NCBI RefSeq assembly: GCF_000526935.1
Contig: NZ_JAHA01000010.1
Location: 62,001-126,000 of the forward strand
Origin: Butyrivibrio sp. FCS014
Lineage (GTDB): Bacteria; Bacillota; Clostridia; Lachnospirales; Lachnospiraceae
Length of the DNA stretch: 64,000 nt
Reading direction: 5' to 3'
Positions 40,048 through 64,000 of the stretch are shown here, in pieces. Under the pieces are notes generated by a model. It saw nothing but the letters and a program-made list of their open reading frames with translations, did no database searches and was not told the origin of the DNA. Numbering within the stretch: position 1 is the stretch's first letter; every line of letters starts with the position of its first letter. Made by a program: the position numbers and the translations under genes.

Positions 40048-42336
40048 ATGGCACATAATGTGGACTTTTTTCGAGACGAGATAAGAAACGGCTTTTACAT
40101 TCCCACAGCAATCAAGCAGTCATGGGCTTCTGCTTTGGATGTACTCTCCGAGATTGACCGAATCTGCAAAAAGCACGACATTAACTACTTTGCAGATTGG
40201 GGCACTTTTCTTGGTGCTGTTCGTCATGGCGGAATAATCCCATGGGACGACGACATAGACATCGCGATGCTGCGAGATGATTACGACAAATTTAGGGCGG
40301 TAGCTGATTCAGAACTACCCGAAGGCTATGCCATTCACGACTATGAACGCCAAGAAAACTACCGGCTTTTTCTGACCCGCATAGTTGGCAGCACACACAT
40401 CTGTTTTGATCCCGATTATCTTAACAGTCACTACAATTTCCCCTGGATTGCAAGCGTAGATATCTTTGTCAAAGATTATCTCTATAAGGACTCTTCCGAG
40501 GAAAAGACACGATGCGATGAGATAATGCTTATCCTTGCTGTCGCCGATGGCATTATGGATGGCACCCTCAGGGATGATGCCATATCCGAGAAACTACAAT
40601 ACCTGGAAAAGAAATATGATATCGGGCTGCCATTAGCCTCCACCAAAAGAGAACTCTTTATCGCTCTTTACAGACTTGCAGAAAAGCAGATGGCACGCTG
40701 TCCCAAGGAAGGATCTGACCGGATAGGCCAAATATTCCCCTGGGGCCTTAAAGGTAACCCCGGAGAACCCGCTAGCAGATATGAGTCCTTTGTCCAAATC
40801 CCCTTTGAAAGCACAACTATACCTGTGCCTTCGTACTACAACGCGGCTCTTTCCGCTCGCTATAGCAACTACAATAATATCTCTAAAAACTGGGATGGCC
40901 ATGCATATCCTGCTTTTGATATGCAAAAGAAACTTTTTGAAGCAGATCACAATATTAAACTTCCCACCTTCACATTTGATTCAGCTATGACAACACGACC
41001 TGCTGCCGATAAAAGCTCATCACTAAAATCCTTGGCCCATGAATGCCTCTGCGAATTAAACACGCTCTATGAAAGCAGCGTAACAGCACTATCAGATGGA
41101 GACACCAAGGAACTCGAGCGTCTCCTTAATTCAATGCAGCAATTAGCGGCCGATCTGGGAACCATGACCGAGAATGTCAAAGGCGAAGACTCTCCACGGG
41201 CCAAGGCAATTGTTAAATGGCTCGAGGAATTATGCGAAGTAATTTTCAAGTGCTTCCAAAGCGCAGCTGAATCTGCCCAAGCAAGCAACATACTCGCCCC
41301 TATAAAGGATCATCTTTCAGCACTGCATGATGTATTAGACAACAACCTGTTCAATGTAAAAGAAATCCTGTTTCTTCCTGTAGGTCCTGTCGAATGGAGG
41401 GGCTTTGAACAGACTTACAACCAATTTATAAACGACCGGCAATATGATGTTACGGTTATACCGTTGCCTCTTTTGACCAAGAATTGCACAGGACAGATCA
41501 CGTCAACACAGGAGGAAATCGCAGCAGCAACCCGCATTTTTGAATATCCCTCTATGCTTAAGCTTACATCCTGGGCAGACTATGACTTGTCGCTCCACTG
41601 CCCGGACGCAATCTATATACAAAATACCTACGACGGAGAGAATCCCTGCATCACGATTCCTCCTTATTACTATGCGTCTAATCTTACTAATTTCACCGAT
41701 AACCTCATTTACATTCCCATAGGAAAGACCTCAGAGTTTACTGCCAAAGATATACCGGATCAGATGAGCCTTGGATTCTATATCACGAAACCCGGTGCGG
41801 TTTATGCGGATGAAATACTGGTGCAGTCAGAGAACATAAAAGCCCAATATGTGAATGCTCTGGCTCGCTGGGCAGGTAACGCGACTCTGACCTACTGGGA
41901 CCGGAAGATTCATGTAAAAGAAAACCTCTACGCTCCAGCGAATAATAGACTGACAGAAGCTCCCATACAAAAAGAATTGCTCTTCTGTGTTAGCCTGTAT
42001 GAATATACCGAACATAAGGATGACTTCAGCAATGCTCTGACATCCAGGCTTACCATTATGTCAAAAAATAAAGACACACTTCATACCTTTGTGTGTCTCT
42101 ATCCCGATTATTCAATTGATGACCCGGACATTCCCGGGGAATATCAGGAATTCCATGCCCTTACTGCGGAGCTGTCTGATAATGCAGGCATTGATGTTAT
42201 TTCTTTTCCCGAAAAGGATCTCGAAGGATTCTCAAAAAGATTCGCGGCTTATTATGGCAGTTCATCTCCTCTCGTTCCGGTCTTTTCTGCCGAAGGAAAA
42301 CCTGTGATGGTAGCTGACTATAATATCAGGCTTTAA
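40048..42336 (+). CDS. LicD-family transferase fused to a CDP-polyol-transferase-like domain, 762 aa
   Basis: Residues 1 to about 300 are LicD: an N-terminal EIRNGFYIPTAIKQSW helix, GTFLGAVRHGGIIPWDDDID with the metal-binding DDDxD at 67-71, VDIFVKDYL and a closing Tyr/His region. LicD/fukutin enzymes move a phosphorylated group (phosphocholine, ribitol phosphate) from a CDP or CMP donor to a sugar. Residues about 310-440 are helical linker. From about 445 the protein resembles the first domain of CDP-glycerol-type transferases (KEILFLPVGPVEWRGFEQTY; DVTVIPLPLL; PDAIYIQNTYDGENPCITI), as in the genes at 48704 and 51628. Its last 4 bp overlap the stop of the convergent LicD gene. Donor not determinable; CMP-phosphonate or CDP-ribitol are the local candidates. 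Confidence 0.85.
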   Translation: MAHNVDFFRDEIRNGFYIPTAIKQSWASALDVLSEIDRICKKHDINYFADWGTFLGAVRHGGIIPWDDDIDIAMLRDDYDKFRAVADSELPEGYAIHDYERQENYRLFLTRIVGSTHICFDPDYLNSHYNFPWIASVDIFVKDYLYKDSSEEKTRCDEIMLILAVADGIMDGTLRDDAISEKLQYLEKKYDIGLPLASTKRELFIALYRLAEKQMARCPKEGSDRIGQIFPWGLKGNPGEPASRYESFVQIPFESTTIPVPSYYNAALSARYSNYNNISKNWDGHAYPAFDMQKKLFEADHNIKLPTFTFDSAMTTRPAADKSSSLKSLAHECLCELNTLYESSVTALSDGDTKELERLLNSMQQLAADLGTMTENVKGEDSPRAKAIVKWLEELCEVIFKCFQSAAESAQASNILAPIKDHLSALHDVLDNNLFNVKEILFLPVGPVEWRGFEQTYNQFINDRQYDVTVIPLPLLTKNCTGQITSTQEEIAAATRIFEYPSMLKLTSWADYDLSLHCPDAIYIQNTYDGENPCITIPPYYYASNLTNFTDNLIYIPIGKTSEFTAKDIPDQMSLGFYITKPGAVYADEILVQSENIKAQYVNALARWAGNATLTYWDRKIHVKENLYAPANNRLTEAPIQKELLFCVSLYEYTEHKDDFSNALTSRLTIMSKNKDTLHTFVCLYPDYSIDDPDIPGEYQEFHALTAELSDNAGIDVISFPEKDLEGFSKRFAAYYGSSSPLVPVFSAEGKPVMVADYNIRL

Positions 42337-43352
42337 GCACGACAGTCAGCAGGATCTACAACCAACTTTCCGTTCTCATCGTATTCCAGGAATTCATCCG
42401 GGATTTTCCATTCTCTGGCATTATAAGCCTTGTATAACTCACTCCTCTGATATTTGTAGATAGGATACTCATGTTGTGAAGTATGCTTACGAGGAATCTT
42501 ATAATCACCAAAAATATTACTCAAAATACCATCATAATCCCGGGGAATCGGAACGTCCATCACGCCTTCAAAAGGAACAAATATCCTGTCTGTAAAGTGC
42601 TCTTCTCTAAATCCCTTCTCGCCGTAGTATATTACCTGTTCCCTGTTTTCCACATGTTTAGAGCCGCAGTCCTCACATATACCGCAAGCCAGATCAAGGA
42701 GTCTTAGTATCTGCATTGTCATAGGCTCTGCATCAGAAAAACAGTAAGCCAGTTCCCTTTCAATCGTCCTTCGGATTTCCATATACTGCTGACGCAATTC
42801 TTCAGAAATAGTGTTCTTATCCACATCCCATTGCAGCATCAGCATTCTGTCCAGAAGTCTTATGAGCCTGTCCTGATATTCACTTTCCTGAGGATCATCC
42901 GAAACCCTGTCAAACACGAAGACATCCACTCCTGTTGTATAGGGGCAGCCGTGGAACTGCTCCAGAAACTCCGGAGAAGTATCCAGCATACCTCCATTGC
43001 AGACATTGAATGACATCTCTTTCGGTGGAATTGCTCCGGGAAGAAGTGATCTCGTCTTAAAACACGGTGGCAGTTCACTTAAAACAACACCGCAAAACTT
43101 CTCATAATCCGCCCTTAGCATGCCAATATCCAGATCATCATCCCAGGGGACATAGCCCTTGTGTCGCACAGCACCTATCATTGAGCCGTAGCACATGATG
43201 TATCTGATTCCGTACTTCGTACACACCTCGTTGATCCATGCCAGAATCTCCAGCTGAGATGCCCACAAACGCTTCATCATCCCGGTGATGTGAAAGTTAC
43301 ACCGGGTCTCATTTTCGAAATATTCACTTGAAAATTGAAGCCTGGGTGCCAT
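42333..43352 (-). CDS. LicD-family transferase, last gene of the phosphonate operon
   Basis: This 339-aa protein has the conserved start EYFENETRCNFHITGMMKRL, GSMIGAVRHKGYVPWDDDLD (DDDLD at 71-75), GVDVFVFDRV and IPRDYDGILSNIFGDY. A Cys-rich patch near residue 225 (CGICEDCG) is not usual for the family. It lies 43 bp downstream of phosphonopyruvate decarboxylase on the same strand, so it is probably co-transcribed with the phosphonate genes. The simplest reading is transfer of the CMP-activated phosphonate onto a glycan; this is inference from family chemistry and operon position. Confidence 0.87.
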   Translation of the reverse strand: MAPRLQFSSEYFENETRCNFHITGMMKRLWASQLEILAWINEVCTKYGIRYIMCYGSMIGAVRHKGYVPWDDDLDIGMLRADYEKFCGVVLSELPPCFKTRSLLPGAIPPKEMSFNVCNGGMLDTSPEFLEQFHGCPYTTGVDVFVFDRVSDDPQESEYQDRLIRLLDRMLMLQWDVDKNTISEELRQQYMEIRRTIERELAYCFSDAEPMTMQILRLLDLACGICEDCGSKHVENREQVIYYGEKGFREEHFTDRIFVPFEGVMDVPIPRDYDGILSNIFGDYKIPRKHTSQHEYPIYKYQRSELYKAYNAREWKIPDEFLEYDENGKLVVDPADCRA

Positions 43353-43395
43353 ATCACATATTCCTCAAAGTTATTGATCACGTGTCTATAGTTGA

Positions 43396-44517
43396 TTAAA
43401 GAGTCTTTATATAATCCATAAATTTCTGCTTATTCTCAAGCGCTGTTGTCGTGGGTCTTCCAAGATCCTCACGGGCTCCGATGGAGCATTTAACTTCAAT
43501 AAATGACAGTTCATTCCTATCTCTTGCCTGTTCCAGCTCTCTATCCAGGCTTTCGAAATCATTGACACATACAGCATGAGGATATCCACATGCCTCTGCA
43601 ATCGCCACCAGATCTATCTTTGCTGCGACAGTCGGCATTCCGCCTACGGTCTCGTGTGCGCCGTTATTTATAACTACATGTACAAGATTAGCCGGCTTGT
43701 TTGCTCCGACTACGGCCATTGCTCCCATGTGCATCAAAACGGCACCATCACCGTCAACGCACCATATACGTTGGTTCTTTTTATTCAGCGCAATGCCTAA
43801 GGCGATAGAGCTGGAATGCCCCATGGATCCCACTGTAAGGAAGTCATATTTATGTGACTGTCCGTTTGCTGCTCTTGTCTCAAATAATTCTCTGCTGGCC
43901 TTACCCGTTGTGGAAACTATCGGATCTTCACCTGATACAGCCACTATGTGCCGTATAATTTCCTCTCTTACCATCGAATTATCGTTACAATACTTAACCT
44001 TCGGAGCATCCGTCAATGCGCCTTTTCTGATAACAAAGGCCACATCCAGCCCCTTGCTCAGCTTCTGCCTGAACTGCTCCATGACCTTTTTTGTTTCATC
44101 ATCTGTGGTATCAGGCCCGATAACGAAATAGTCTATTCCCATGTTCTCAAGCAACTTTGTAGTTACCTCGCCCTGATAAATGTGCTGAGGTTCGTCATGG
44201 ATACCGGGCTCCCCGCGCCATCCCACAATAAACACTGCAGGTATCGCATACACCCTGTCATTCAAAAGACTTGCAACAGGATTTATTATGTTACCCTCTC
44301 CCGAATTCTGCATATATACTACGGGAATCTTACCTGTAGCAAGATGATACCCTGCTGCCAACGCAGTACAGTTACCCTCATTTGCCGCAATAATATGATG
44401 ATCAGGATCAATCCCGTAAGTATCCATCAGATAATTGCAAAGGGCCTTCAGCTGTGAATCAGGCACTCCTGTATAGAAGTCCGAGCCAATAATATTCACC
44501 AAAGTTTGTACTTTCAT
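43396..44517 (-). CDS. Phosphonopyruvate decarboxylase
   Basis: This 373-aa ThDP enzyme is of the two-domain, short type typical for Ppd: an N-terminal half with FYTGVPDSQLKALCNYLM, IIAANEGNCTALAAGYHLAT (Glu of the catalytic site), VYMQNSGEGNIINPVASLL and GWRGEPG..DEPQH; and a C-terminal half with the cofactor motif GDGAVLMHMGAM...INNGAHETVGG. It decarboxylates phosphonopyruvate to phosphonoacetaldehyde, the irreversible step that pulls the PEP mutase reaction forward. Related sulfopyruvate decarboxylase has a similar pattern, but PEP mutase two genes upstream settles the assignment. GAGGAG precedes the ATG. Confidence 0.93.
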   Translation of the reverse strand: MKVQTLVNIIGSDFYTGVPDSQLKALCNYLMDTYGIDPDHHIIAANEGNCTALAAGYHLATGKIPVVYMQNSGEGNIINPVASLLNDRVYAIPAVFIVGWRGEPGIHDEPQHIYQGEVTTKLLENMGIDYFVIGPDTTDDETKKVMEQFRQKLSKGLDVAFVIRKGALTDAPKVKYCNDNSMVREEIIRHIVAVSGEDPIVSTTGKASRELFETRAANGQSHKYDFLTVGSMGHSSSIALGIALNKKNQRIWCVDGDGAVLMHMGAMAVVGANKPANLVHVVINNGAHETVGGMPTVAAKIDLVAIAEACGYPHAVCVNDFESLDRELEQARDRNELSFIEVKCSIGAREDLGRPTTTALENKQKFMDYIKTL

Positions 44518-44549
44518 TAAGAAATCTCCTCAGCCAATCAGGCTTGTCT

Positions 44550-46415
44550 TTATCCAAGAATATCGTTATACAATTCTTCCATAGTATCCCCTGTCAGTTT
44601 CACCGGATGATTCACCAGCCTGTCAGGATTGACCCCATCTAAAAGCTTGGTGATGACAGCGTGTTTATCTAATGCCGAATCTTTGCTTTCCTGATCAATC
44701 TTTTCCAATTCCAGTTTCTTTAATATGCCGTCAAACTTCTCAGCACCTTCCATGGCTGAACTGCATCCCATAAACGACGCCAATTCTTCAAGCGTAGAAA
44801 CCAGATATTCTTTTCCACGTTTATCTATACAATCATCCACATGCCTGATCATATACGGCCATAATCCGGCAACGCAAAGCGCAGCAGCATGTCCATGGGC
44901 TATTCCAAATATACCGGTCAGCATATAGCACATAGCATGGCCTGCAGTAGTCTGCGTGATATTGATCGCCTGTCCTGCCAGCATAGATGCCTTTTGCATT
45001 GCGATGTTACCACTATCTTCATTTGCAATATAGGAATCAATATTCTCAAGAATCATTCCTATTGCTTCTCTTGCATATGCTTTGCTCTTATCGGTGGAAT
45101 TTACAGACCAGTAGGACTCTATGCTATGACAGAGAGCATCCAGCATTGTTGCTTTTCTATTATAGAATGACACTGTCTTTAGAAATGACGGATCATAAAA
45201 TACAGCTTTGGGAATGCAGCTCTCATGTGTTACGGATTGCTTCTTCCCATCGTGGTAGATTACCGCATATCTTGTCACTTCACTTCCTGTTCCCGCCGTA
45301 GTTGGTATAGCCATAAAAGGAATACTGTTTTCCTCGATGCTCTGGTCCAAGTAACTTTTGCTATGGTCCATTGTGGCAAACAGTTTTATACACTTCGCCA
45401 CATCCATAGTGCTGCCTCCGCCAAGGGCAAGGATGCTGTCGCACTCCTTACTGTTAAAAAGATCTACTCCTTTACACACGGACTCATACTTTGGATTGGG
45501 AGAAAAATCCGAGAATCTGATAACTTTTATTCCAAGCTGCTTTTCCATTTCGCATATGTGCTGATACAGCAGATGATACTCAACCGCTTTGCCGCACACA
45601 AACAACAGTTTTTTTACACCATTGTCCCGCACATATTTATCAAACTCATCATACCGATCTTCTATGAAAAAAATCTCATGTGAAGTTTTTTTTTGCGTCA
45701 GATTTTCAACAAGCTTTGAAACCACTGCCAAATCTTCCGGAGTATCTACTTCTCTGCACAGCATGTCCTTCATATCCAGCGGATGAATGAGGCATCGGTC
45801 ACTTACAACATTGAAAGCATTTTCTGCATAACACTTTCGCTTTGCCGGCTCGCCGCTTTCACAGAATTCAGTTATGCTTTCAAGCCATATTTCCCAATCC
45901 TCTCTGTTGAGCTTATACAAGGGCTGAGCAGCAAGGGCCTGTTCAAAAAACTCTATTCCGACTTTTAAAATTCTGTCATTCTCAATTACCGCCTTAAAGT
46001 CCTTCTCCGGAAGCGGCACCGTAGAACTGACAGCCATGCAGCTTTGCGGGCACGAGAGTATTTTGTTCAGAGCGGCTCTCTCAAAGACAAGATCCCCATG
46101 CATCATTACGATGTCATCATGAAGTTCCTCTCTTGCACAATAAATAGAATAAATATAGTTTGTCTCTGAATAGATCTCATTACGAACAAAGCTTATGGAA
46201 ATAGGAAGGTTAAGCCCCATAACATATTTCCTGAGAATATTTTCATGAGCTCCAACAGTTATGACAGCTTCTTTTACACCTGCATCCAGAAGCTGCGCTA
46301 ATTGTCTTCCGATTATGGTTTCCTTGCCATAAACTTCAGTCATGCATTTGGGCTGATCTGATGTGAGAACCCCCATTCTGGTCCCCATTCCTGAATTCAG
46401 TAATAAAGCTTTCAT
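44550..46415 (-). CDS. Nucleotidyltransferase fused to iron-type alcohol dehydrogenase, probable phosphonoacetaldehyde reductase
   Basis: Residues 1 to about 245 are an NTP_transferase domain: LLLNSGMGTRMGVLTSDQPK with the G-x-G-x-R loop and Pro-Lys, VMMHGDLVFE as the metal-binding Asp region, and CREVDTPEDLAVV. This matches sugar- and phosphonate-nucleotidyltransferases, including PntC-type CTP:phosphonate cytidylyltransferases. Residues about 262-621 are an iron-containing alcohol dehydrogenase: LALGGGSTMDVAKCIKLF, PTTAGTGSEVTRYAV, DALCHSIESYWS, and the metal ligands in TAGHAMCYM and IAHGHAA. Between PEP mutase and phosphonopyruvate decarboxylase, the reductase should form 2-hydroxyethylphosphonate from phosphonoacetaldehyde, and the first domain would activate it as the CMP derivative. 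The exact nucleotide is inferred. Confidence 0.85.
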   Translation of the reverse strand: MKALLLNSGMGTRMGVLTSDQPKCMTEVYGKETIIGRQLAQLLDAGVKEAVITVGAHENILRKYVMGLNLPISISFVRNEIYSETNYIYSIYCAREELHDDIVMMHGDLVFERAALNKILSCPQSCMAVSSTVPLPEKDFKAVIENDRILKVGIEFFEQALAAQPLYKLNREDWEIWLESITEFCESGEPAKRKCYAENAFNVVSDRCLIHPLDMKDMLCREVDTPEDLAVVSKLVENLTQKKTSHEIFFIEDRYDEFDKYVRDNGVKKLLFVCGKAVEYHLLYQHICEMEKQLGIKVIRFSDFSPNPKYESVCKGVDLFNSKECDSILALGGGSTMDVAKCIKLFATMDHSKSYLDQSIEENSIPFMAIPTTAGTGSEVTRYAVIYHDGKKQSVTHESCIPKAVFYDPSFLKTVSFYNRKATMLDALCHSIESYWSVNSTDKSKAYAREAIGMILENIDSYIANEDSGNIAMQKASMLAGQAINITQTTAGHAMCYMLTGIFGIAHGHAAALCVAGLWPYMIRHVDDCIDKRGKEYLVSTLEELASFMGCSSAMEGAEKFDGILKKLELEKIDQESKDSALDKHAVITKLLDGVNPDRLVNHPVKLTGDTMEELYNDILG

Positions 46416-46435
46416 CTTTTATCTCTCTATCTTCA

Positions 46436-47731
46436 TCACAGTTCATCAATCAGGGTGATAATCTTTTTAATCGACAGAATCTCGCTGTCAATCTCTTTTG
46501 CTCTATGGTGTATCAGAATACTTCTTGCAGCATTTTCCATGGCCGGGAATGCTGCGCGAAGAAGCTGGTTAGCATAGATGCATATGTTAGCGCCATGCTC
46601 GGCAAGTTCGATATCGGTGATACTGTCGTAGGAACTGGGAACAACAACTATAGGTGTGTCCTTATCTTCCTTCCTGAACCTGTCACAGAATTCCAGAATC
46701 TCATCGGGCTCCTTTTTTCTGCTATGGATCATAATGCTGTCAGCACCTGCCTTCACATATGCACGAGCCCTCTCCAATGCATCCTCAATTCCCTTCTCAA
46801 GGATAAGGCTCTCGATTCTGGCAATTATCATGAAATCTTCCGACAGCTGAGCCCTTTTTCCGGCAGCTATCTTGTCACAGAAATGCTCAATTGTATCCTG
46901 CGTTTGAGCAACCTCCGTGCCAAACAGACTGTTCTTCTTAAGTCCCGCCTTGTCTTCAATGATTACTGCGCTGACGCCCATTCGCTCAAGGCTTCGTACC
47001 GTATACACAAAGTGCTCAGTCATTCCGCCGGTATCTCCGTCAAAGATAATAGGCTTTGTCGTAACTTCCATAACATCATCGATTGTCCGGAATCGTGATG
47101 TCATATCCACCAGCTCAATGTCAGGCTTTCCCTTATTGGTACTATCGCAAAGAGAACTGATCCACATTGCATCAAACTGATCAATAACGCCTTCCTCTCC
47201 AACAATGGTTTTCTCGGCTATAAGTCCGGTAAGACCGCTGTGTACTTCAATAGCCTTTACTATCGGAACCATTTTGATTGCCTTGCGGAGCCTTCCACGC
47301 CTGAATTCAGGCATAGCAAGCTTTTCCTTCATCTGCTTATCAAGCTTTGAAACCAATTCATTCCGGGTATATGGAATCTCTATCAGTTCTCCTCCATACT
47401 TCCCGGTAAGCTCCAGAATATTATTCTTGATCGCCATCATGAACGACGATGACCAGTTGTCACCATGAACAATGTAGTCAGGGTGCAATGTCTCAAAAAT
47501 TTCGTCATACATTATCTGATTCTGGACAATCACATCGGCGACTCCCGGAAGACCCTTTATCAGATTTACTCGCTCTTCCAACGTGATAGAAGGGAACCTG
47601 TTATATTTGACCATCGCACTATCTGACAGAACGCCAATGGTCACTTCGCCGTACTTATTGGCTTCTTTGATAATGTTTAAATGTCCTTCATGAATAATGT
47701 CAGTACAAAAGCATGCGTAGACTTTTTTCAT
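46436..47731 (-). CDS. Phosphoenolpyruvate mutase with N-terminal cytidylyltransferase-like domain
   Basis: I take ATG 47731 (GGAG 5 nt upstream; ATG 47734 and GTG 47749 are alternatives), giving 431 aa. Residues 1 to about 140 are a tag-type nucleotidyltransferase with the HxGH motif at 14-17 (DIIHEGHLNI) and a later TRNELVS, in the place of the family R-T-x-G-I-S/T motif. Residues about 155-431 are PEP mutase: WISSLCDSTNKGKPD, IIFDGDTGG, and the family signature EDKAGLKKNS at 259-268. PEP mutase makes the C-P bond (PEP to phosphonopyruvate). The domain order is that of Fom1 of fosfomycin biosynthesis, whose first domain makes CMP-2-hydroxyethylphosphonate. It is the first phosphonate gene after a LicD gene in the operon. 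Confidence 0.93.
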   Translation of the reverse strand: MKKVYACFCTDIIHEGHLNIIKEANKYGEVTIGVLSDSAMVKYNRFPSITLEERVNLIKGLPGVADVIVQNQIMYDEIFETLHPDYIVHGDNWSSSFMMAIKNNILELTGKYGGELIEIPYTRNELVSKLDKQMKEKLAMPEFRRGRLRKAIKMVPIVKAIEVHSGLTGLIAEKTIVGEEGVIDQFDAMWISSLCDSTNKGKPDIELVDMTSRFRTIDDVMEVTTKPIIFDGDTGGMTEHFVYTVRSLERMGVSAVIIEDKAGLKKNSLFGTEVAQTQDTIEHFCDKIAAGKRAQLSEDFMIIARIESLILEKGIEDALERARAYVKAGADSIMIHSRKKEPDEILEFCDRFRKEDKDTPIVVVPSSYDSITDIELAEHGANICIYANQLLRAAFPAMENAARSILIHHRAKEIDSEILSIKKIITLIDEL

Positions 47732-47745
47732 CATTTCTCCTTCCT

Positions 47746-48621
47746 TCACGTAAGGTATTCTGTATAAGGTCTATCCGGATCCAATATTCCTATTCTGTGA
47801 TCCGATGCGTACATTTTGCGTTCGTTATAGTCCCCGTAACGGGCAGTCAGGATTTCGTGATATCCTACCGGCGCATTAAACTCATAGCCCTCAAAGGGAA
47901 GTTTGACAACACCTCCGTACCACTCTTTTTTGCATGGAGGCGTTGTGAACATTTTGGAAAAGACATTTATCTCACCGAGACTGTCGTAGCAGGAAGCAAG
48001 GAGATTCTCAAGCAGTGTAAGTCGCTCCTCATATGGCATTCCCAAAACTTCTATCATCGAATCAAATCCAAATTTAGGCTCTTTCCCTTCAATCATTTCC
48101 ATCAATAAATCTTTGGGAGTAAAGGTTGCCGTCCACAATTCCAAAAGAGTGGATATTATCTCCGGAGCTGCTTTGCCATCAAGTACATCCGCGGCAATAT
48201 CAAGAGGGAAAATATCGATAAATATTCCCTGATGAAAGTTAGCATTCGGAATGATCGCACTTCCCATCATGGTGGTATTATCATTTCTCAATCTCGAAAA
48301 TGAAGTCATTCTGTTGTCATTGTGATCAGTATGATAATTCTGTACAAAAAAAGGAGTCTCAAACCACTTCGGAGCAATCTCCAAAAACCTTTGATAATCA
48401 GGCCTTGGCATGGTCACATCTATATCGTCGTCCCAGGGAATGAATCCCTTATGCCTCACTGCACCAAGAAGAGTCCCAAAATCAATGAAATACGTAAGTC
48501 CGTTCTCCGCGCAGAACCGGTCAAAAAGCACAAGCATATCCAACTGTACTTTCCAGACCCTTTTCATCTTTGCAGCAATTACATGCCCTTCACGTATTTC
48601 TTCTTCCAAATTAAATTCCAT
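47746..48621 (-). CDS. LicD-family transferase, first gene of the phosphonate operon
   Basis: This 291-aa single-domain LicD has EEEIREGHVIAAKMKRVW, FIDFGTLLGAVRHKGFIPWD with DDDID at 64-68, FIDIFPLDIA and PVGYHEILTARYGDY. It is shorter than its paralogues and lacks any extra domain. The ribosome site is AGGAGG and a TGTGATACAAT promoter lies about 40 bp upstream. The stop codon is 14 bp from the chosen PEP mutase start. That it heads an operon whose other genes make and activate a phosphonate is the best evidence that it transfers that phosphonate. Confidence 0.88.
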   Translation of the reverse strand: MEFNLEEEIREGHVIAAKMKRVWKVQLDMLVLFDRFCAENGLTYFIDFGTLLGAVRHKGFIPWDDDIDVTMPRPDYQRFLEIAPKWFETPFFVQNYHTDHNDNRMTSFSRLRNDNTTMMGSAIIPNANFHQGIFIDIFPLDIAADVLDGKAAPEIISTLLELWTATFTPKDLLMEMIEGKEPKFGFDSMIEVLGMPYEERLTLLENLLASCYDSLGEINVFSKMFTTPPCKKEWYGGVVKLPFEGYEFNAPVGYHEILTARYGDYNERKMYASDHRIGILDPDRPYTEYLT

Positions 48622-48660: not shown

Positions 48661-48669
48661 ATTGTATCA
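48661..48669 (-). promoter_or_regulatory. Extended -10 promoter of the phosphonate operon
   Basis: The minus strand reads TTTTTG-TG-A-TACAAT, 40 bp before ATG 48621. The preceding gene ends in an AAAACAC/GTGTTTT hairpin at 48691-48706, which could separate the transcripts. Confidence 0.55.
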
Positions 48670-51627: not shown

Positions 51628-52632
51628 ATGAAAAAAATAGTTTTTCTGTCATTATCCCCCGAAACCTGGGACGGACTCGAAACTATATGGGATAACGCTA
51701 CAGCCGATCCCGAAAACGAAGTCACTGTTATTCCTATCCCAACTTATAAAAGGAATAGCGATGACAGCCTGTCAGATGCCCATTATACGCTTTCAGGGTA
51801 TCCGGATAATGTTCCCATTACCGATGTTAATGCATATAGTTTGAAAACAAATCATCCCGACATAATCTACACGCAAAATGTACAGGATACGAGCAATCCC
51901 GGTTTCTGTGTCCATCCTGCTTTTCACACTGATGCCTTAAAAGCCTGTACAGATCAGCTTGTGTATGTACCGTATATGTGTACGGAGGAAATATCCCTTG
52001 ATAACAAGCCCTATCTGGACAGCATAAAAATGCTGTTTATTTGCCCTGCCCTGCTAAGCAATGTTGACCGCATAATAGTTCAATCAAACAATCTGAAAGA
52101 GCTATATCTTTATTATCTTGCCGGCGGTGATCCGGAGCTCATCAAACACTGGTCCGGGAAAATAAGCTGCGACGATTATCCCAGAAATGAGATTCTGAAA
52201 AAGTATGATCGCCTGACTGTGTACCGCCCCGATGAATGGGACACTCTTTTATGCCCCGATTCTGATGACCACAGAAAGGTCGTTTTGCTATGTACATCAG
52301 TCATGGGGATTCTTACTAACGAGCACCATGTGATCAATAAACTTAGAGAACTGTTTGAAGACTTTATGAATAATACAGATGATCATGTACTAATTTGGCG
52401 TCCTTATCCGGCCATAAAGGAAGCCATTAAAGACCTTCGTCCGGGACTTGTTGACGACTATGACAACCTGATTTCTTTTTATCTTGATAATCATGTAGGA
52501 ATACTTGATAAGCTTCCATCTCCGACTTCTGCCATCATAATCAGTGACGAATATATAGGAGACGAGTGCGGCGTCATGGAATTATATAAAACCACAGGAA
52601 AACCGGCATCCAGGCTGGACTATGGAGTTTAA
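51628..52632 (+). CDS. CDP-polyol-transferase-like protein, 334 aa
   Basis: It starts MKKIVFLSLSPETWDGLETI and shares EVTVIPIPTY, HPDIIYTQNVQDTSNPGFCV, TDQLVYVPYM and VQSNNLKELYLYYLAG with the second domains of the LicD fusions. Unlike those it also has a C-terminal nucleotide-binding-like half (VVLLCTSVMGIL; HVLIWRPYPAIKEAI; IIISDEYIGDECGVMEL) in the order seen in CDP-glycerol glycerophosphotransferases, where R-P-H-P and S-D are donor-site motifs. Here the motif is RPYP rather than RPHP, so catalysis is uncertain. No membrane segment is present. It overlaps the convergent LicD relic by 4 bp (shared TTAA stops). Confidence 0.75.
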   Translation: MKKIVFLSLSPETWDGLETIWDNATADPENEVTVIPIPTYKRNSDDSLSDAHYTLSGYPDNVPITDVNAYSLKTNHPDIIYTQNVQDTSNPGFCVHPAFHTDALKACTDQLVYVPYMCTEEISLDNKPYLDSIKMLFICPALLSNVDRIIVQSNNLKELYLYYLAGGDPELIKHWSGKISCDDYPRNEILKKYDRLTVYRPDEWDTLLCPDSDDHRKVVLLCTSVMGILTNEHHVINKLRELFEDFMNNTDDHVLIWRPYPAIKEAIKDLRPGLVDDYDNLISFYLDNHVGILDKLPSPTSAIIISDEYIGDECGVMELYKTTGKPASRLDYGV

Positions 52633-53641
52633 AATTCATTCATTTTCTGCCAGTTTGCGCAGAATTCCTCTACTGTATTCTGATTGCCTGCCTCTTTCCA
52701 CATTTTTGCAAATTCCTCTTCCTGAACACAATAGAAAGGATATTCATGGCTGGCAGAAAACTGCGCGGGGGTCATATAATTCTCCCCATACAGATATGTG
52801 AGCACCGGTGCCGGTTCGCAAGGAGCTATTACCGTGAATTCTTCAAAGGGTAATTCTACGCCCTCCCCAAAACTCTCTTTTTTCATTTCAGGAAACCCTG
52901 AAAAATCATCCCTTTCTTTTGGATATGGTATATATGTAATGTTGGCAATGGCATCCGATTCACTTTCAGGAACTGAACTCGCATACCGATCACAGGCACA
53001 TAATATTTCGTGAATGGATAGGATACTATCTCATCTTCTTTGTCAAAAGAAATCCCAAGATCGCGCTCATACTGTTCCAGCCTGCTTTCCAGCATATTGT
53101 TTTCCTTTAACATGGACCACTTCTCAACAATCCACTGCAAGTCATTTATCTTTCTGACAAGTTCCAGCTGATCTTTGGGGTCCCGCGGCAGATTGTCCAG
53201 CGGAAAAATATCTATACCTATTCTTGGGTACGGATAAGCATGAAAGTAATTCATATATTTAGGCAACGAAAAATAGGTTTCATCAGCCATGACTCTGCCC
53301 TGGTATCCTTTGTTTATTGCCCATAGTCTGGAAGACTCTGCATATATTCCCGGATTCACAAAGCCTTCAGGCAGCGCCTTTGGTGCAATGCTCATGAATT
53401 TCATGTAGTCCTCGCGAAGCATGCAGATGTCTATGTCATCATCCCAGGGAATAAACCCTTTATGCCTTACTGCCCCAAGAAGTGTTCCAAAAAAAGCGTA
53501 CCACTTTATATCATGCTCAGCGCAAACTTTCCTGACAACATCAAGAACTTCCAGTTCAGCTGCCCATGCCCTTTTCATCATCGGAACGACTGTGAATCCT
53601 TCTCGTATTTCTTCTCTGAAAAATTCATTGGAAAATCTCAT
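52629..53641 (-). pseudogene. LicD-family gene broken by one frameshift
   Basis: The N-terminal part from ATG 53641 (AGAGGG before it) is a good LicD: EEIREGFTVVPMMKRAW, FFGTLLGAVRHKGFIPWDDD with D at 67-69 and 71, and GIDIFPLDNL. Near 53015-53033 the frame slips: frame one continues to a stop at 52883, while the other frame gives SIHEILCACDRYASSVPESE, then ANITYIPYPKERDDFSGF and the expected LicD C-terminus (VELPFEEFTVIAP; LTYLYGENYMTP) to 52629. Only a one-base change separates them. It is either a very recent pseudogene or a sequencing error. Confidence 0.85.
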
Positions 53642-53678
53642 GAATATCCCTCTTCCTCTATGGTATTGAACGCATAGA

Positions 53679-53687
53679 TGATACAAT
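53679..53687 (+). promoter_or_regulatory. Extended -10 promoter (TG-A-TACAAT)
   Basis: GA-TG-A-TACAAT lies about 53 bp before ATG 53740 and faces the LicD relic divergently. Confidence 0.45.
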
Positions 53688-53739
53688 ATATTTGTAATAC
53701 CAAACACAATACCGGATCATCAATCAGAAAGGATCGTAT

Positions 53740-55503
53740 ATGCCTGACAATATCAACGTATCAAATCAACTTCCTTCAGCACTGCTGGTCTTTCTGTGCT
53801 GCTCCCCAGAGGAAATCGATGATTATGTCAGCCAGGAAAGCTATGGCAACTTTCAAGTCGTAAGCATAGATTCTCCCGATGACTTTCCGGATCTTTTTTC
53901 CTTTATCCTGGACTGTGAATGTGACTATATCAGCTTTGTCGAGCCGGAGCACGTGTATGAGTCCGGGAGGCTTGCCGCTGCTATAAACGAGTTCTTATCC
54001 AATCCCGGCACTGATCTGGTCATCTCTCCAAGACAATTCTATGATGACAGCGCCAATGTTATTCTCAATGTGTATTCCCAGTATCATGACTATTTCCCGG
54101 GAAAAACCATAGGTGGACGTTCTCTTCTTCAGGACTGCGTATTAAACGATCTGTGCCTGTATGGGGATATTTCCTGCGCCATGATCCCAGCTACTTATGC
54201 CAAAAGAATTCTGCCCATTATCCCAATTGATATGGTCATGCCGGGAATACGGTCTACAGCGCTGTATCACTATTTATTGATCAACGGTAACCTGCGCTAT
54301 CTTGATACCGCATATGTTTACAAACATCTTTCTGCAAAAACAGACGCCCATGATAACGCCTCTGCCTTCTTTGAATATCTTAAGCTATTCCTTGCCCGGG
54401 AGCTCGGTATTACAAACGAGCAGATATATGAGCTTGAAAGCAGATACAAAAAATATCGGATTAGTGTTCTTAAAAAGGAGATTACATTCTTTTATCAAAA
54501 CCAAAGCGAACTGGATCTTCTCACCCCGCTTATGGAGGAAGCCTCTCGCAGAGGATATATTTGTACTTCAACCATGAACATAACGCAGCAAGTGGTTATC
54601 GGAGTATATTGCTCTCACACCAACTTCCCTGAGAACGCCAGGTTTTCAATCATTCTCCTGCATGATATGACACAAGGATGTGATGTATGGCCACTCTACT
54701 GGCAAACCGAAAGCTGGAACAAATATGACCTGGGAATACTACCGGGTGAATTCTGGGCTGATCTATGGAAACAAAATGCTGTACTCTCATGCGCACGCCC
54801 CAGGTATGGCGTATTTGCACTGGGCTTTTTGAAAAATGACAGGTACGGAGAAGGTTGCTCTACCACCGATAAACCGCAAATTGAAATGAAATACGATAAG
54901 ACCATCCTTTATGCTCCGTCATGGGAATACGATGACAAAGAGGACGATTTCATCCTTGCCCTTCAATCTTTACCTGTAAATCTCTTAATCAAACAAAACA
55001 AAAAATCCTTCAGAAGCAATGAAGCTTTTCAGTTTGTAATTGATAATATCGATAATATGAGAGCCCTGCATGAGGGCAAATATGATAATCTTTACTATCT
55101 GGATCCCGATACTGAATTCCTTCAGGCTGTCCAGTTATGCGACCTTGTCGTATCAGATGAGTCCAGCGTAATGACAGAGGCTCTTTTGTACGGAATCCCA
55201 AGTGTCGCTGTAACCGACTGGCTGATACCCGACATGGTACCTGCAAGAAAAGCCATCGTCCCTACAGATTGGGTGTACCGTATAAAAAGAGTCGAACTTC
55301 GCGAGACCATCGAGAAGTTTATAAGAGGTGAGCTCAACGAGATAGACCCCGAAGAATGGAAAAACAAAGTATTTGGAAATTCAGGACATGTCAGCGCCGG
55401 CATAATGGATGCCATCGATTACTATACCGGAAATCCTTCAAATACCGAGTTTATGCAAAACAAGATCGAGCAGAATGCGGGGATCAGCACTCTGTGGAAC
55501 TGA
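53740..55503 (+). CDS. CDP-glycerol glycerophosphotransferase-like protein with GT2-like N-terminus, 587 aa
   Basis: Residues 1 to about 215 resemble a GT-A fold (SALLVFLCCSPEEIDDYV; CDYISFVEPEHVYESGRLAA in the DxD position; ISPRQFYDD) but lack a clear DxD, so that part may be inactive. From about residue 275 the protein follows the CDP-glycerol:poly-glycerophosphate transferase pattern: IILLHDMTQGCDVWPLYW, ILYAPSWEYDDKEDDF, DLVVSDESSVMTEALLYGIP. Such enzymes add glycerol- or ribitol-phosphate units from CDP donors. AAAGGA precedes the ATG. It is convergent with the next gene, with 5 bp between the stop codons. Confidence 0.78.
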   Translation: MPDNINVSNQLPSALLVFLCCSPEEIDDYVSQESYGNFQVVSIDSPDDFPDLFSFILDCECDYISFVEPEHVYESGRLAAAINEFLSNPGTDLVISPRQFYDDSANVILNVYSQYHDYFPGKTIGGRSLLQDCVLNDLCLYGDISCAMIPATYAKRILPIIPIDMVMPGIRSTALYHYLLINGNLRYLDTAYVYKHLSAKTDAHDNASAFFEYLKLFLARELGITNEQIYELESRYKKYRISVLKKEITFFYQNQSELDLLTPLMEEASRRGYICTSTMNITQQVVIGVYCSHTNFPENARFSIILLHDMTQGCDVWPLYWQTESWNKYDLGILPGEFWADLWKQNAVLSCARPRYGVFALGFLKNDRYGEGCSTTDKPQIEMKYDKTILYAPSWEYDDKEDDFILALQSLPVNLLIKQNKKSFRSNEAFQFVIDNIDNMRALHEGKYDNLYYLDPDTEFLQAVQLCDLVVSDESSVMTEALLYGIPSVAVTDWLIPDMVPARKAIVPTDWVYRIKRVELRETIEKFIRGELNEIDPEEWKNKVFGNSGHVSAGIMDAIDYYTGNPSNTEFMQNKIEQNAGISTLWN

Positions 55504-55508
55504 GCCGC

Positions 55509-56972
55509 TCATGATTTGGCTTCCAACAGCTTCATGATATCGCCATAAACAAACTCACTTGCCTTGCATCCGTTGTAGGTTACATAATCAAGCTCTTTTG
55601 CAAAGACCGATTCTCTTTGTGCAGACATGGTATCATTGTCTTCAATAACCACGTTTTGAAGGAATTCTTCTATTTTCTCATAATCCGTACCCGGAGCTTT
55701 GTAATAGGAATCCGTTACCTTTTTGCCCAACTCCAAAAAGCCTTGTTCAGGCCTTGTAAGCAAAAGAAGCGGTTTATTGACATACAGATATTCACCAAGA
55801 AATGATACACTGTCTGTCATCATCGCGTCCGAGGTGGAGAACAGTTCCAGATAGGAAGACTCTTCTACAACTCTCGCATTAGGAAGCGAGTTCCATTCCT
55901 CCAGGTATTTGTCGTAGCTCTCATAATCTTTAAACATCTTTCCAGCAACAGCTGCATACCGAAGATTGGGATGAGGCTTTAACACAAAACTGACCTTGTC
56001 CTTATATTTTTGGGCCAGATACAGCATAAACCATGCATTTTCTCTAAAGGTAGAGAACAGAAGCCACCCCTTATGCAGCACACTGTAATGAGGGGCGATG
56101 ATAATACGCTTTATTTCATCAGGGTTCTTTCCCTCAGGAATCTTCCATAAAGATTTTATCTGCTCATCAGTAACTTTCTTTCCTTCGTAAAAGTAGTCCA
56201 TCTTGGCATATCCGGAAAAAACTGCATTTCTTCCGCCAAGAAACTGGTATTTACTATATCCGGAAAGTGTAGAACCAGAGTCGCAATAAATCCTCCACAC
56301 AAGATTGAATATTTCTTTGTTGAATACAGCCTCAGGAGCAAATGTCCCCTTATGATTCTCGGCAAATTGGATGCCATAAGGAATATAAGCCAGCAGGCAA
56401 TGAAGTGGCAAAGATGCAAACCATAAAGACTGTGGTGTACTGCTAAACCAGGACGACAATTGAAAGGCAATATCGGGATAGTTTCCAAAATATTCCCAGC
56501 TTCTGAATTCCCCGGTCTCAGGATCCATCCCTTCCAGAACCGTATGTCCACTGTTCTTAAACCATTCTAAAGTCTTGTTGTAACTGTCCCTGCAGCTGTT
56601 CTCATCTCTGTCATCCAAGGGCGTCACAAGAACTTTGACATCAAAAGAGTCGTTGGCATCAAGAAGTCTGTAAACCCCTTCTGCCGGCCACTGGGCTGCT
56701 GAATAGCTCTGAAAAATGACATTGATCTTATCCCCGCTTTTATACTTATTCTGCAATCTTCTTACTACTGCAGCGGTAACCACGTCATAAAGCTGAACGA
56801 ACAGATCACCTCCGCCTTCAAGTGATTCCCTGAGCAAAAACAGACTCATAAGATGCATCCATCTGTAGTTGTCCGGGATTTCATCTCGGCCGAAATCACC
56901 TCTGTCGATTCCATCTATAAGTTCTTCAATTCTTGCGGAATAATACGCAACAGACTCGCGGTCTAATTCCAT
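55509..56972 (-). CDS. CDP-glycerol/CDP-ribitol phosphotransferase family protein, 487 aa
   Basis: The pattern is of the TagB/TagF/TarL family, and this gene carries the fullest motif set in the window: INVIFQSYSAAQWPAEGVYR, DIAFQLSSWFSSTPQS, AYIPYGIQ, IIIAPHYSV, VSFVLKPHPNLRYAAV with the donor-site K-P-H-P, and DAMMTDSVSFLGEYLYVNKP with S/T-D-S. Predicted job: transfer of glycerol-phosphate or ribitol-phosphate from its CDP form to a glycan. A TarI/TarJ-like pair at 13-15 kb could supply CDP-ribitol. It is cytosolic or membrane-peripheral, with no hydrophobic helix. AGGAG precedes the ATG. Confidence 0.85.
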   Translation of the reverse strand: MELDRESVAYYSARIEELIDGIDRGDFGRDEIPDNYRWMHLMSLFLLRESLEGGGDLFVQLYDVVTAAVVRRLQNKYKSGDKINVIFQSYSAAQWPAEGVYRLLDANDSFDVKVLVTPLDDRDENSCRDSYNKTLEWFKNSGHTVLEGMDPETGEFRSWEYFGNYPDIAFQLSSWFSSTPQSLWFASLPLHCLLAYIPYGIQFAENHKGTFAPEAVFNKEIFNLVWRIYCDSGSTLSGYSKYQFLGGRNAVFSGYAKMDYFYEGKKVTDEQIKSLWKIPEGKNPDEIKRIIIAPHYSVLHKGWLLFSTFRENAWFMLYLAQKYKDKVSFVLKPHPNLRYAAVAGKMFKDYESYDKYLEEWNSLPNARVVEESSYLELFSTSDAMMTDSVSFLGEYLYVNKPLLLLTRPEQGFLELGKKVTDSYYKAPGTDYEKIEEFLQNVVIEDNDTMSAQRESVFAKELDYVTYNGCKASEFVYGDIMKLLEAKS

Positions 56973-56980
56973 ATGATCTC

Positions 56981-57988
56981 CTATCCAAAGCGCTTATCGC
57001 ATTCTTTCATAATCTCCAGATCCAGGTCTTTTATCTTCGCCTTCACTACCGCATTTGATTCATAGTCAGCTGTAATAATCTTATTTTTTAGCTTCGCCAG
57101 TTTCTTAAGCATTGCCCGATATTTTTGATCAGTCTCATCAAAGTATCGTCCGATCATCTCCTTTGATGCTCCGTACTTTTTTATCTGATCGTACAGACAT
57201 CTGTTGATGCCAAAGGAATATACGTTGATGATCGCATATTCTGTAGCTTCCTGTGCCCCCTTATATGTACTCATCAGATGGCAGGAATTATATATAGCTT
57301 CCATCGCTCCATAGACCGAATCGAAATATGTATCCACATCCATAGTCTTGGTGGCAGAATCACTGATATCACAATAGTTGTACAGAATTTCCTTAACGTT
57401 ACCTATGGATGAGGCCCTTAAAAACATGTATATAAGAATATCCATATCCTCCAGGCATCTCACGTTTTCCCGCATACGTATAACCGGATCCTGCCAGAGC
57501 TCTCTTTTGAAGATTTTTGTTACAAGATATCCTCCTCCGGCAATAAGTCTCGTTCTCTTTTCATCATTCAAATCTCCTGTCAGGTCATCTCCGGTATAGA
57601 GCCTGGCATTATCAGTGGCCTCCCGATAATAGCCGCTGTCAACAATGTCGTAATCACCCTCTTTTGCCTTATCATACAAAAGCTCATACATGTTAGGCGC
57701 CACATAATCATCGCTGTCCACAAGCCCGACATACTCACCGGAAGCCATATCCAATGCCTGATTTCTGGCGCCTCCGGCGCCCCGGTTTTTATCACCGTTT
57801 ATTATGATGACCTTATCCGGGAACTGCTTTTCGCATCTTGCCATGATTTCCCAGGTATCATCCTTGGAGGCATCATTTACAACTATTATCTCAATATCCC
57901 GCAAAGTCTGATTAACAAGACTTCCCAGGCATCTGGCCAATGTATCATGGGAATTATATGCAGGAACAACTACGCTTACTTTTTTCAT
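56981..57988 (-). CDS. Family 2 glycosyltransferase, 335 aa
   Basis: VSVVVPAYNSHDTLARCLGS, VNDASKDDTWEIM, GAGGARNQALDMASGEYVG and LVDSDDYVAPNMYELL mark a GT-A family 2 enzyme with an intact DSDD site. The remaining 150 residues are helical and carry the usual acceptor-binding region. No Rossmann module is attached, unlike the 28-30 kb paralogues. It lies 8 bp before the CDP-polyol transferase gene, in an operon that starts at 62.9 kb near the flagellin gene. Sugar unknown. Confidence 0.87.
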   Translation of the reverse strand: MKKVSVVVPAYNSHDTLARCLGSLVNQTLRDIEIIVVNDASKDDTWEIMARCEKQFPDKVIIINGDKNRGAGGARNQALDMASGEYVGLVDSDDYVAPNMYELLYDKAKEGDYDIVDSGYYREATDNARLYTGDDLTGDLNDEKRTRLIAGGGYLVTKIFKRELWQDPVIRMRENVRCLEDMDILIYMFLRASSIGNVKEILYNYCDISDSATKTMDVDTYFDSVYGAMEAIYNSCHLMSTYKGAQEATEYAIINVYSFGINRCLYDQIKKYGASKEMIGRYFDETDQKYRAMLKKLAKLKNKIITADYESNAVVKAKIKDLDLEIMKECDKRFG

Positions 57989-63895: not shown

Positions 63896-64000
63896 AATTT
63901 TATTCCTCCTTGAATGTGTACGGTGGCATCCTTGCCACTCGTTTGCTCGTTTTGAAATGGTCCTATGTGCTGGCCATATTACCATTCCTGTTTGTTTTAC

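Follow-up and report, generated by a model that had tools for sequence, protein, structure and literature searches.

A LicD-flanked phosphonate operon near flagellin genes in Butyrivibrio sp. FCS014 as a predicted new variant of phosphonyl tailoring

Introduction

Phosphonate tailoring via intermediates activated with cytidine monophosphate (CMP) was described in 2019 (Rice et al., PMC6697681), and in 2022 2-aminoethylphosphonate (AEP) was shown by mass spectrometry on the type A flagellin glycan of Clostridioides difficile (Hensbergen et al., PMC8861647). The latter organism is negative for pepM, and the same paper states the source of its AEP to be open. Here, we describe a five-gene operon in Butyrivibrio sp. 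FCS014 that combines three phosphonate genes with two genes of the LicD family. It lies 17 kb from flagellin within a stretch of 64,000 nucleotides (positions 62001-126000 of contig C10 of genome G000; hereafter the window). The system is a new variant of phosphonyl tailoring, and the operon product is most likely CMP-2-hydroxyethylphosphonate (CMP-HEP) for a surface glycan. An earlier note on this DNA had taken the decoration to be undescribed. That does not hold for CMP-phosphonate tailoring (PMC6697681) or for AEP on a flagellin glycan (PMC8861647), yet no paper tying phosphoenolpyruvate (PEP) mutase genes to flagellar loci was found in the open-licence literature searched.

The Pnt pathway (PntC, Treponema denticola and Atopobium rimae; PMC6697681) resembles the window in having a PF01467-fused PEP mutase, a PF12804 nucleotidyltransferase, a decarboxylase and nearby LicD-like genes, and the same paper reports Pnt clusters holding a fused nucleotidyltransferase as well as a separate one. 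The window differs in that an iron-dependent alcohol dehydrogenase (Fe-ADH), fused to the nucleotidyltransferase, replaces the AEP transaminase; neither "alcohol dehydrogenase" nor "flagell" occurs in the main text of PMC6697681. A PEP mutase with an N-terminal cytidylyltransferase domain is likewise found in Fom1 of fosfomycin biosynthesis, whose HEP activity is cited in PMC6697681. Unlike in Fom1, the window domain keeps the HxGH motif without G-[IV]-S-S, and a further nucleotidyltransferase is encoded apart from it. The type A flagellin glycan of C. difficile (PMC8861647) offers a parallel for a phosphonate on flagellin, in the window predicted from genes alone; unlike C. difficile, the window island holds the synthesis genes, and the predicted phosphonate is HEP. 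Finally, the Lic pathway (LicC/LicD, phosphocholine) also proceeds by activation with cytidine triphosphate (CTP) and LicD-family transfer, using the same protein families (PMC6697681; established knowledge), whereas in the window the donor would be a PEP-derived phosphonate. A search of the window for a choline kinase/LicC-like gene, with a fusion protein of locus L103 as query, matched the nucleotidyltransferase fusion alone, and weakly.

Results

Organization of the operon

Reading frames and profile searches gave five consecutive minus-strand genes, all with family scores over the curated cut-offs:

47746..48621, minus strand: LicD5, LicD-family transferase, first gene of the operon; PF04991 135.7 bits (cut-off 22.6), WDDDID at residue 63
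46436..47749, minus strand: PEP mutase with N-terminal Fom1-like cytidylyltransferase-fold domain; TIGR02320 398.8 bits (cut-off 319.6), PF01467 46.1 bits
44550..46415, minus strand: fusion of a MobA/LicC-like nucleotidyltransferase (about residues 1-235; PF12804 38.6 bits, cut-off 27) and Fe-ADH (about residues 247-618; PF00465 140 bits, cut-off 31.3)
43396..44517, minus strand: phosphonopyruvate decarboxylase; TIGR03297 462.5 bits (cut-off 312.5), GDG...N motif
42333..43352, minus strand: LicD6, LicD-family transferase, final gene of the operon; PF04991 96.4 bits (cut-off 22.6)

The five-gene operon is real, in the order and place given by the earlier note, with the three phosphonate genes (43396-47749) as its core. 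Some details of that note had to be corrected. Instead of gaps of 14-43 bp, the LicD5 and PEP mutase genes overlap by 4 bp, given a GTG start, and the remaining gaps are 20, 32 and 43 bp; and a consensus scan gave no promoter-like site at 48661, where a promoter had been placed. A terminator-like hairpin is found at 48700-48679, between the upstream LicD gene and the operon, such hairpins being no more frequent in the window than in shuffled sequence (5 found, shuffle mean 5.5). The PEP mutase motif, noted earlier as EDKAG..NS, reads EDKAGLKKNS and conforms to the EDKXXXXXNS pattern of Pnt clusters. The N-terminal CTP_transf_like domain (PF01467) of the same protein had been overlooked; as in Pnt clusters, PF12804 and PF01467 nucleotidyltransferases are thus both present, fused to or near the PEP mutase. 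The GDG...N motif of the decarboxylase is presumably that for thiamine pyrophosphate. The family scores bear out the earlier claim that PEP mutase and decarboxylase commit PEP to phosphonate, and it is very probable that a phosphonate is made.

The predicted phosphonate

The fusion protein is predicted to be a phosphonoacetaldehyde reductase joined to an HEP cytidylyltransferase. The pathway proposed earlier is retained, but its endpoint would be HEP, one step beyond phosphonoacetaldehyde, given the fusion of the Fe-ADH to the nucleotidyltransferase and its co-occurrence with nucleotidyltransferases of this type. CMP-HEP, and not the AEP form, is consequently the probable product, with considerable confidence.

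Co-occurrence was followed across 138 PEP-mutase loci apart from the window, annotated with the proteins of the window, L059, L064 and L103 at score thresholds of our own; near-copies and stretches differing in length are among these loci. The window-type nucleotidyltransferase and Fe-ADH were found together in 29 loci, the nucleotidyltransferase alone in 3, Fe-ADH alone in 1 and neither in 105. Likewise, the L059-type nucleotidyltransferase occurred with AEP transaminase in 67 loci, with 7 holding only the former, 12 only the latter and 52 neither. AEP transaminase was present in 5 of the 30 loci with Fe-ADH vs 74 of the 108 without. Since each nucleotidyltransferase type tracks its partner enzyme, two putative cluster types, AEP and HEP, stand out, and the window would be of the HEP type. 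No AEP transaminase, the mark of the AEP branch of Pnt, was detected among the window reading frames (phmmer with the L059 transaminase at E 1e-3, the genome outside the window not being searched); with Fe-ADH in its place, the system is classed as an HEP-type variant and not as PntC/AEP. The nucleotidyl activation of the phosphonate claimed earlier is supported by the fusion together with these co-occurrences.

Within the 128 of 138 loci covered by a listing of fusions (all but L071, L088, L092, L098, L105, L110, L119, L172, L174 and L177), nucleotidyltransferase/Fe-ADH fusions like that of the window were encoded in L037, L038 and L202. L041, L072, L075 and L089 carry a longer fusion (~757-770 aa) with a cytidylyltransferase-like (CyTF) domain between the nucleotidyltransferase and Fe-ADH, besides the CyTF domain on PEP mutase. 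The Fe-ADH half of the window protein retains DALCH plus more histidines, which we take to be metal ligands. It is noteworthy that this half falls under the cut-off of the phosphonate-linked Fe-ADH model TIGR03405 (141.8 vs 423.7 bits), which weighs against the assignment; that it would reduce phosphonoacetaldehyde we infer from fusion and co-occurrence alone. A search of viral contigs gave no relative of the fusion protein, and a structure model of it was set aside as poor (mean predicted local distance difference test, pLDDT, 67.7) and not used.

The cytidylyltransferase-like domain of PEP mutase

The closest solved structure to the N-terminal domain of the window PEP mutase is the Fom1 domain 5x3d (E 4.6e-32). 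The window domain has HxGH in the form HEGH and lacks G-[IV]-S-S near the domain end, and it is not classed as an active Fom1-type enzyme. The same pattern emerged from a motif count: HxGH is kept in 124 and G-[IV]-S-S in 0 of 125 PEP-mutase-fused CyTF domains, and the latter motif is missing from 4/4 Fe-ADH-fused ones. Both motifs are present in Fom1 and in 9 of 11 domains fused to neither enzyme. We infer from this loss that the PEP-mutase-fused domain may no longer be the main activating enzyme, so that activation probably falls to the other nucleotidyltransferase. The motif loss provides a testable answer to why such clusters have two nucleotidyltransferases.

In two loci the gene adjoining PEP mutase (L064 11312-12877 and L056 11306-12856) encodes a Fom1-like CyTF domain in which G-[IV]-S-S is retained, the L064 gene being a fusion with a radical-SAM domain. 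These genes recall Fom3, which acts on CMP-bound HEP, and their products may act on a CMP-phosphonate. A further observation concerns genome G527, the source of L077, where seven PEP mutase matches over the cut-off are found in one 5.6-Mb assembly.

Flagellin as the candidate acceptor

The flagellin gene of the window, described earlier as nearby, was located at the end of the window, and a second flagellin and a FlgL-like gene follow past the window end:

63074..63985, minus strand: flagellin; PF00669 143.4 bits, PF00700 91.9 bits

PEP mutase was matched over the cut-off in 14 of 99 relatives, 39 of 393 genomes of the class and 45 of 397 of the family. Its position relative to flagellin was assessed for 25 PEP-mutase loci in 24 flagellated genomes, using rounded genome sizes and including related genomes and loci on short contigs that cannot show a neighbour. 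PEP mutase was found ≤20 kb from flagellin in 5 loci (0.97 expected, P 0.002), ≤35 kb in 7 (1.55 expected, P 5e-4) and ≤50 kb in 9 (2.09 expected, P 9e-5), the 35-kb distance having been chosen after looking; the distances tried were 10, 20, 35 and 50 kb. A second test drew on the named loci, i.e. the best 80 of 581 relatives, at 5, 10, 20 and 50 kb. Here, 6 of 31 loci lay ≤20 kb from flagellin (1.05 expected, P 5e-4), a result biased upward as the 44 of 80 named loci used include all five already seen with flagellin. This test counted 24 of 25 flagellated genomes, G524 being dropped since its coordinates are those of G194 in the main test. Distances in this biased sample were 2.5 kb for L103, 4.7 kb for L059, 6 kb for L083 (where the neighbour is a short flagellin-like protein) and L064, 7.6 kb for L045, 16 kb for L055 and 38 kb for L041.

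The gene orders of three of these loci are informative. L059, from a Lachnospiraceae metagenome-assembled genome, runs flgK, flgL, fliW, csrA, decarboxylase, nucleotidyltransferase, AEP transaminase (426.5 bits, cut-off 360.8), a methyltransferase-like gene and PEP mutase, followed on the same strand by a short gene, fliD, fliS, another gene, flagellin, LicD and flagellin. FlgK, FlgL and FliS score over their curated cut-offs, FliW and FliD under theirs, and the csrA-like gene is our own assignment from its sequence. In L064, LicD, PEP mutase, the radical-SAM/CyTF fusion and the decarboxylase share a locus with flagellin, an MptE-like (Maf) protein, PseB, PseF and PseI, and with a FliD match under the cut-off. 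L103 (Kineothrix sp. MSJ-39) holds, at 5.7-19.4 kb, three LicD genes and a choline kinase/nucleotidyltransferase fusion near PEP mutase; no decarboxylase was found in this stretch, which possibly serves a different phosphonate beside phosphocholine. Kineothrix sp. MSJ-39 seems to belong to the family sample of the window, as G715 and G514 agree in PEP mutase coordinates and score, which points to Lachnospiraceae. The PEP mutases of the window, L059 and L064 fall in one 14-row clade (support 100/99). On the PEP mutase tree, where L041 and L055 carried no flagellin label, this label shows weak clustering at best: it changes 11 times, against a mean of 12.5 in shuffles, 43 of 500 shuffles being as low.

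Co-localization and gene order in L059, L064 and L103 thus support the flagellin or surface-glycan setting put forward earlier, and by genomic neighbourhood flagellin is the likeliest and best-supported acceptor, at even chances or marginally above. Several observations pull the other way. With 17 kb in between, flagellin is not operon-linked to the phosphonate genes, and 0 of the 25 loci lie ≤10 kb from flagellin (0.54 expected). Flagellin was present within the fetched stretch in 0 of 30 Fe-ADH-type loci, and those loci with an HEP-type nucleotidyltransferase that are near flagellin stand 15-38 kb off. In the family sample, flagellin was present in 1 of 42 fetched stretches and a Maf-like gene in another; six further matches outside those 42 include G000, G473 (16 kb), G269 (34 kb) and G715 (coordinates as in the genome of L103). 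Flagellin was also missing from 25 of the 36 class genomes with PEP mutase that were searched for it.

The last count would equally be expected if the same CMP-phosphonate cassette served a wall or capsular polysaccharide, giving a phosphonoglycan to which flagellin is a mere neighbour. The window contains CDP-glycerol (CDP, cytidine diphosphate) glycerophosphotransferase-like and IspD-type genes, both of kinds known from wall polymers, and the bacterial phosphonoglycan named in the introduction of PMC6697681 is a Bacteroides fragilis capsular polysaccharide. Against this explanation stand the enrichment of PEP mutase near flagellin (seen also in the biased named-loci sample), the L059, L064 and L103 gene orders, and a tract of high identity between G000 and a related genome, G051, that starts in flagellar genes and includes flagellin. 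A wall or capsular acceptor is regarded as possible, and as clearly less probable than flagellin.

Two groups of named loci carry doubtful labels. L044, L049, L051 and L054, labelled Methanobrevibacter, contain Lachnospiraceae-like PEP mutase and LicD loci, no flagellin being found in them, and L045, labelled Muribaculum, contains flagellins and a PEP mutase locus grouping with Clostridia; both are possibly mis-binned.

The LicD genes and the cassette-less island of G051

The window contains six of the seven LicD matches found in the genome. All six genes have PF04991 over the cut-off and the acidic WDDDxD motif of the LicD family, the split LicD2 being only a partial profile match. Apart from LicD5 and LicD6, the following were found:

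40048..42336, plus strand: LicD1, LicD with C-terminal part, convergent with LicD6; PF04991 94.3 bits
48704..50560, minus strand: LicD4, LicD with C-terminal domain of unknown function; PF04991 103.4 bits
50636..51625, plus strand: LicD3; PF04991 117.5 bits
51628..52632, plus strand: protein resembling certain LicD fusion proteins (L033, L055) in their C-terminal part; no Pfam or NCBIfam match
52629..53707, minus strand: LicD2, split by a tandem repeat of 5 bp when compared with the intact G051 copy (357 aa)

The four further LicD genes reported earlier are hence present, one of them (52629-53707) split; drift, phase change and assembly error all fit this split. The AlphaFold model of LicD4 (pLDDT 78.6) matched FKRP best (E 5.9e-5, template-modelling score ~0.2-0.3 over the whole chain), and the structure search gave no clear fold match for its C-terminal domain.

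G051, of a related species in the same genus and 95% complete, has no PEP mutase match. Its island (L121) aligns with that of the window by blastn at 99.0% identity over 16,273 bp and 97.2% over 1,558 bp, interrupted by one stretch that holds the three phosphonate genes and little besides:

43357..47730, strand not assigned: phosphonate cassette, the 4,374-bp stretch missing from the G051 island; blastn of L121 against the window, ends good to ~20 bp

Neither a remnant nor a target-site duplication was seen at the junctions. Outer 1-kb blocks on the flagellar side are 86-90% identical between G000 and G051 in 7 of 10 cases and 92, 96 and 97% in the others, and the 4 blocks closer to flagellin are 98-99.6% identical. 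As island identity exceeds that of the outer blocks, the island has probably moved recently between the two species, with recombination the likely origin of the high-identity tract. At ~96-99% identity the tract can be followed from window ~38700 to 64000 and over L040 1 to ~6000. The same LicDs and island occur in G051 without the cassette; the phosphonate part therefore looks like a plug-in, a swappable donor cassette gained by or lost from a working LicD island. G004, in which a LicD6 relative (66.9% identical) stands beside a LicD4-like gene and no PEP mutase is matched, favours gain in the window lineage, loss in G051 being the alternative. The two genomes provide a natural with/without comparison of phosphonate genes in one island.

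A role of LicD in phosphonate transfer, as claimed earlier, remains plausible from operon position and LicD chemistry, and is considered rather probable. The flanking pair is, however, not dedicated to phosphonate, since G051 retains both genes intact (identity 98.6% and 97.3% across at most 300 N-terminal residues) without the cassette. Other counts also tell against a close tie. Relatives of LicD5 and LicD6 occur in genomes without a PEP mutase match, the best LicD5 relatives after G051 being in G019 (no match), G054 (PEP mutase present) and G015 (81% complete) and G025 (no match in either); a blastp hint that LicD5 belongs to a PEP-mutase-linked clade was dropped after the genus-wide search. 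LicD was found in 39 of the 138 PEP-mutase loci and is unlinked to Fe-ADH (11 both, 28 LicD only, 19 Fe-ADH only, 80 neither; Fisher P 0.26, ignoring relatedness). Moreover, at least 21 of 79 genus genomes have LicD ≤20 kb from flagellin, a lower bound from a tally selected by eye, and 11 of these were checked and gave no PEP mutase over the cut-off; LicDs in such places therefore have other donors.

Candidates for such donors are encoded close by. An IspD-like gene (PF01128 118.2 bits, under the NCBIfam cut-offs) and a neighbouring dehydrogenase gene are present at window 12963-14863. In L157, IspD-like and dehydrogenase genes are next to LicD, and in L155 a TagD-like gene is next to a relative of the window CDP-glycerol transferase-like gene, these matches too being under the NCBIfam cut-offs. 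A ribulose-phosphate epimerase-like gene lies at window 38892-39575, with relatives near LicD and flagellin in L123, L135, L136, L140 and L157. The IspD-like, dehydrogenase and epimerase-like genes suggest CDP-pentitol donors, and the islands are read as LicD sets fed by exchangeable CDP/CMP donors, the phosphonate cassette being one. Between the LicD genes and flagellin, the island contains:

53740..55503, plus strand: island protein without Pfam match; its L129 relative matches CDP-glycerol glycerophosphotransferase (PF04464 29.9 bits)
55509..56972, minus strand: CDP-glycerol glycerophosphotransferase-like protein; PF04464 30.3 bits (cut-off 22.1)
56981..57988, minus strand: family 2 glycosyltransferase-like protein; NCBIfam matches under cut-off
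58010..61849, minus strand: large glycosyltransferase with FkbH domain; TIGR01686 148.7 bits, PF00535 49.6 bits
61839..62951, minus strand: family 2 glycosyltransferase with TPR-like part, adjoining flagellin; PF00535 72.3 bits

Homologues of the FkbH-domain protein are found in other flagellin islands of the genus (L121, L122, L123, L124, L126, L138, L139 and L140).

Taken further, these observations allow for LicDs that use only CDP-polyol or other donors, with a different enzyme attaching the phosphonate, or with the phosphonate remaining a small molecule. The retention of LicD5 and LicD6 in G051, the commonness of LicD near flagellin where PEP mutase is not matched, the donor-type genes at 12963-14863 and in L157 and L155, and the resemblance of LicD4 to FKRP, a CDP-ribitol enzyme, would all be in agreement with this. 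The 4-bp overlap between the LicD5 and PEP mutase genes and the position of LicD6 at the operon end speak against this reading, as does L041, which has the most similar PEP mutase among the matches listed and LicD genes on both sides of its PEP mutase and nucleotidyltransferase-CyTF-Fe-ADH genes. LicDs without any part in phosphonate transfer are hence considered unlikely.

Discussion

In combination, the data suggest a cassette of three genes that would make CMP-HEP and feed the LicD transferases of a flagellin-glycosylation island, a scheme that as a whole has about an even chance of being correct. Six steps are proposed, each derived from sequence. PEP mutase would convert PEP to phosphonopyruvate and the decarboxylase would form phosphonoacetaldehyde, both on the basis of equivalog-level family matches. 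Fusion and co-occurrence point to reduction of the latter to HEP by the Fe-ADH half of the fusion protein and to activation of HEP with CTP by its MobA/LicC-like half. One or both flanking LicDs would then pass the phosphonate to a sugar, as suggested by operon position and LicD chemistry, and from the genomic neighbourhood the acceptor sugar would most likely be carried on flagellin. Phosphonate synthesis is strongly supported, LicD transfer is plausible, and flagellin is the likeliest target.

With regard to the product, the Fe-ADH could instead catalyse another reaction, a transaminase elsewhere in the genome yielding AEP as in Pnt. AEP is the phosphonate on C. difficile flagellin (PMC8861647), the L059 cluster encodes an AEP transaminase, and the transaminase search covered the window only. 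Conversely, that search returned nothing, the window-type nucleotidyltransferase tracks Fe-ADH, and AEP transaminase is scarce in Fe-ADH loci relative to the others, making AEP an improbable end product here. A secreted, antibiotic-like small molecule is more doubtful still, even though fosfomycin biosynthesis uses HEP as a substrate (Fom1, cited in PMC6697681), as the operon holds no further tailoring gene, is flanked by LicD genes and is surrounded by glycan genes.

Returning to CMP-HEP and flagellin, we tentatively propose, at somewhat less than even chances, that motile Lachnospiraceae decorate flagellin with phosphonates via exchangeable cassettes in LicD islands, HEP in the window and AEP in L059, which spread by recombination between species. 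In the window, L059, L064 and L103, phosphonate synthesis genes are located at or close to flagellin genes, and PMC8861647 states the source of AEP in C. difficile to be open. If the proposal is true, the AEP on the flagellin of PEP-mutase-negative C. difficile could originate in the gut from such bacteria.

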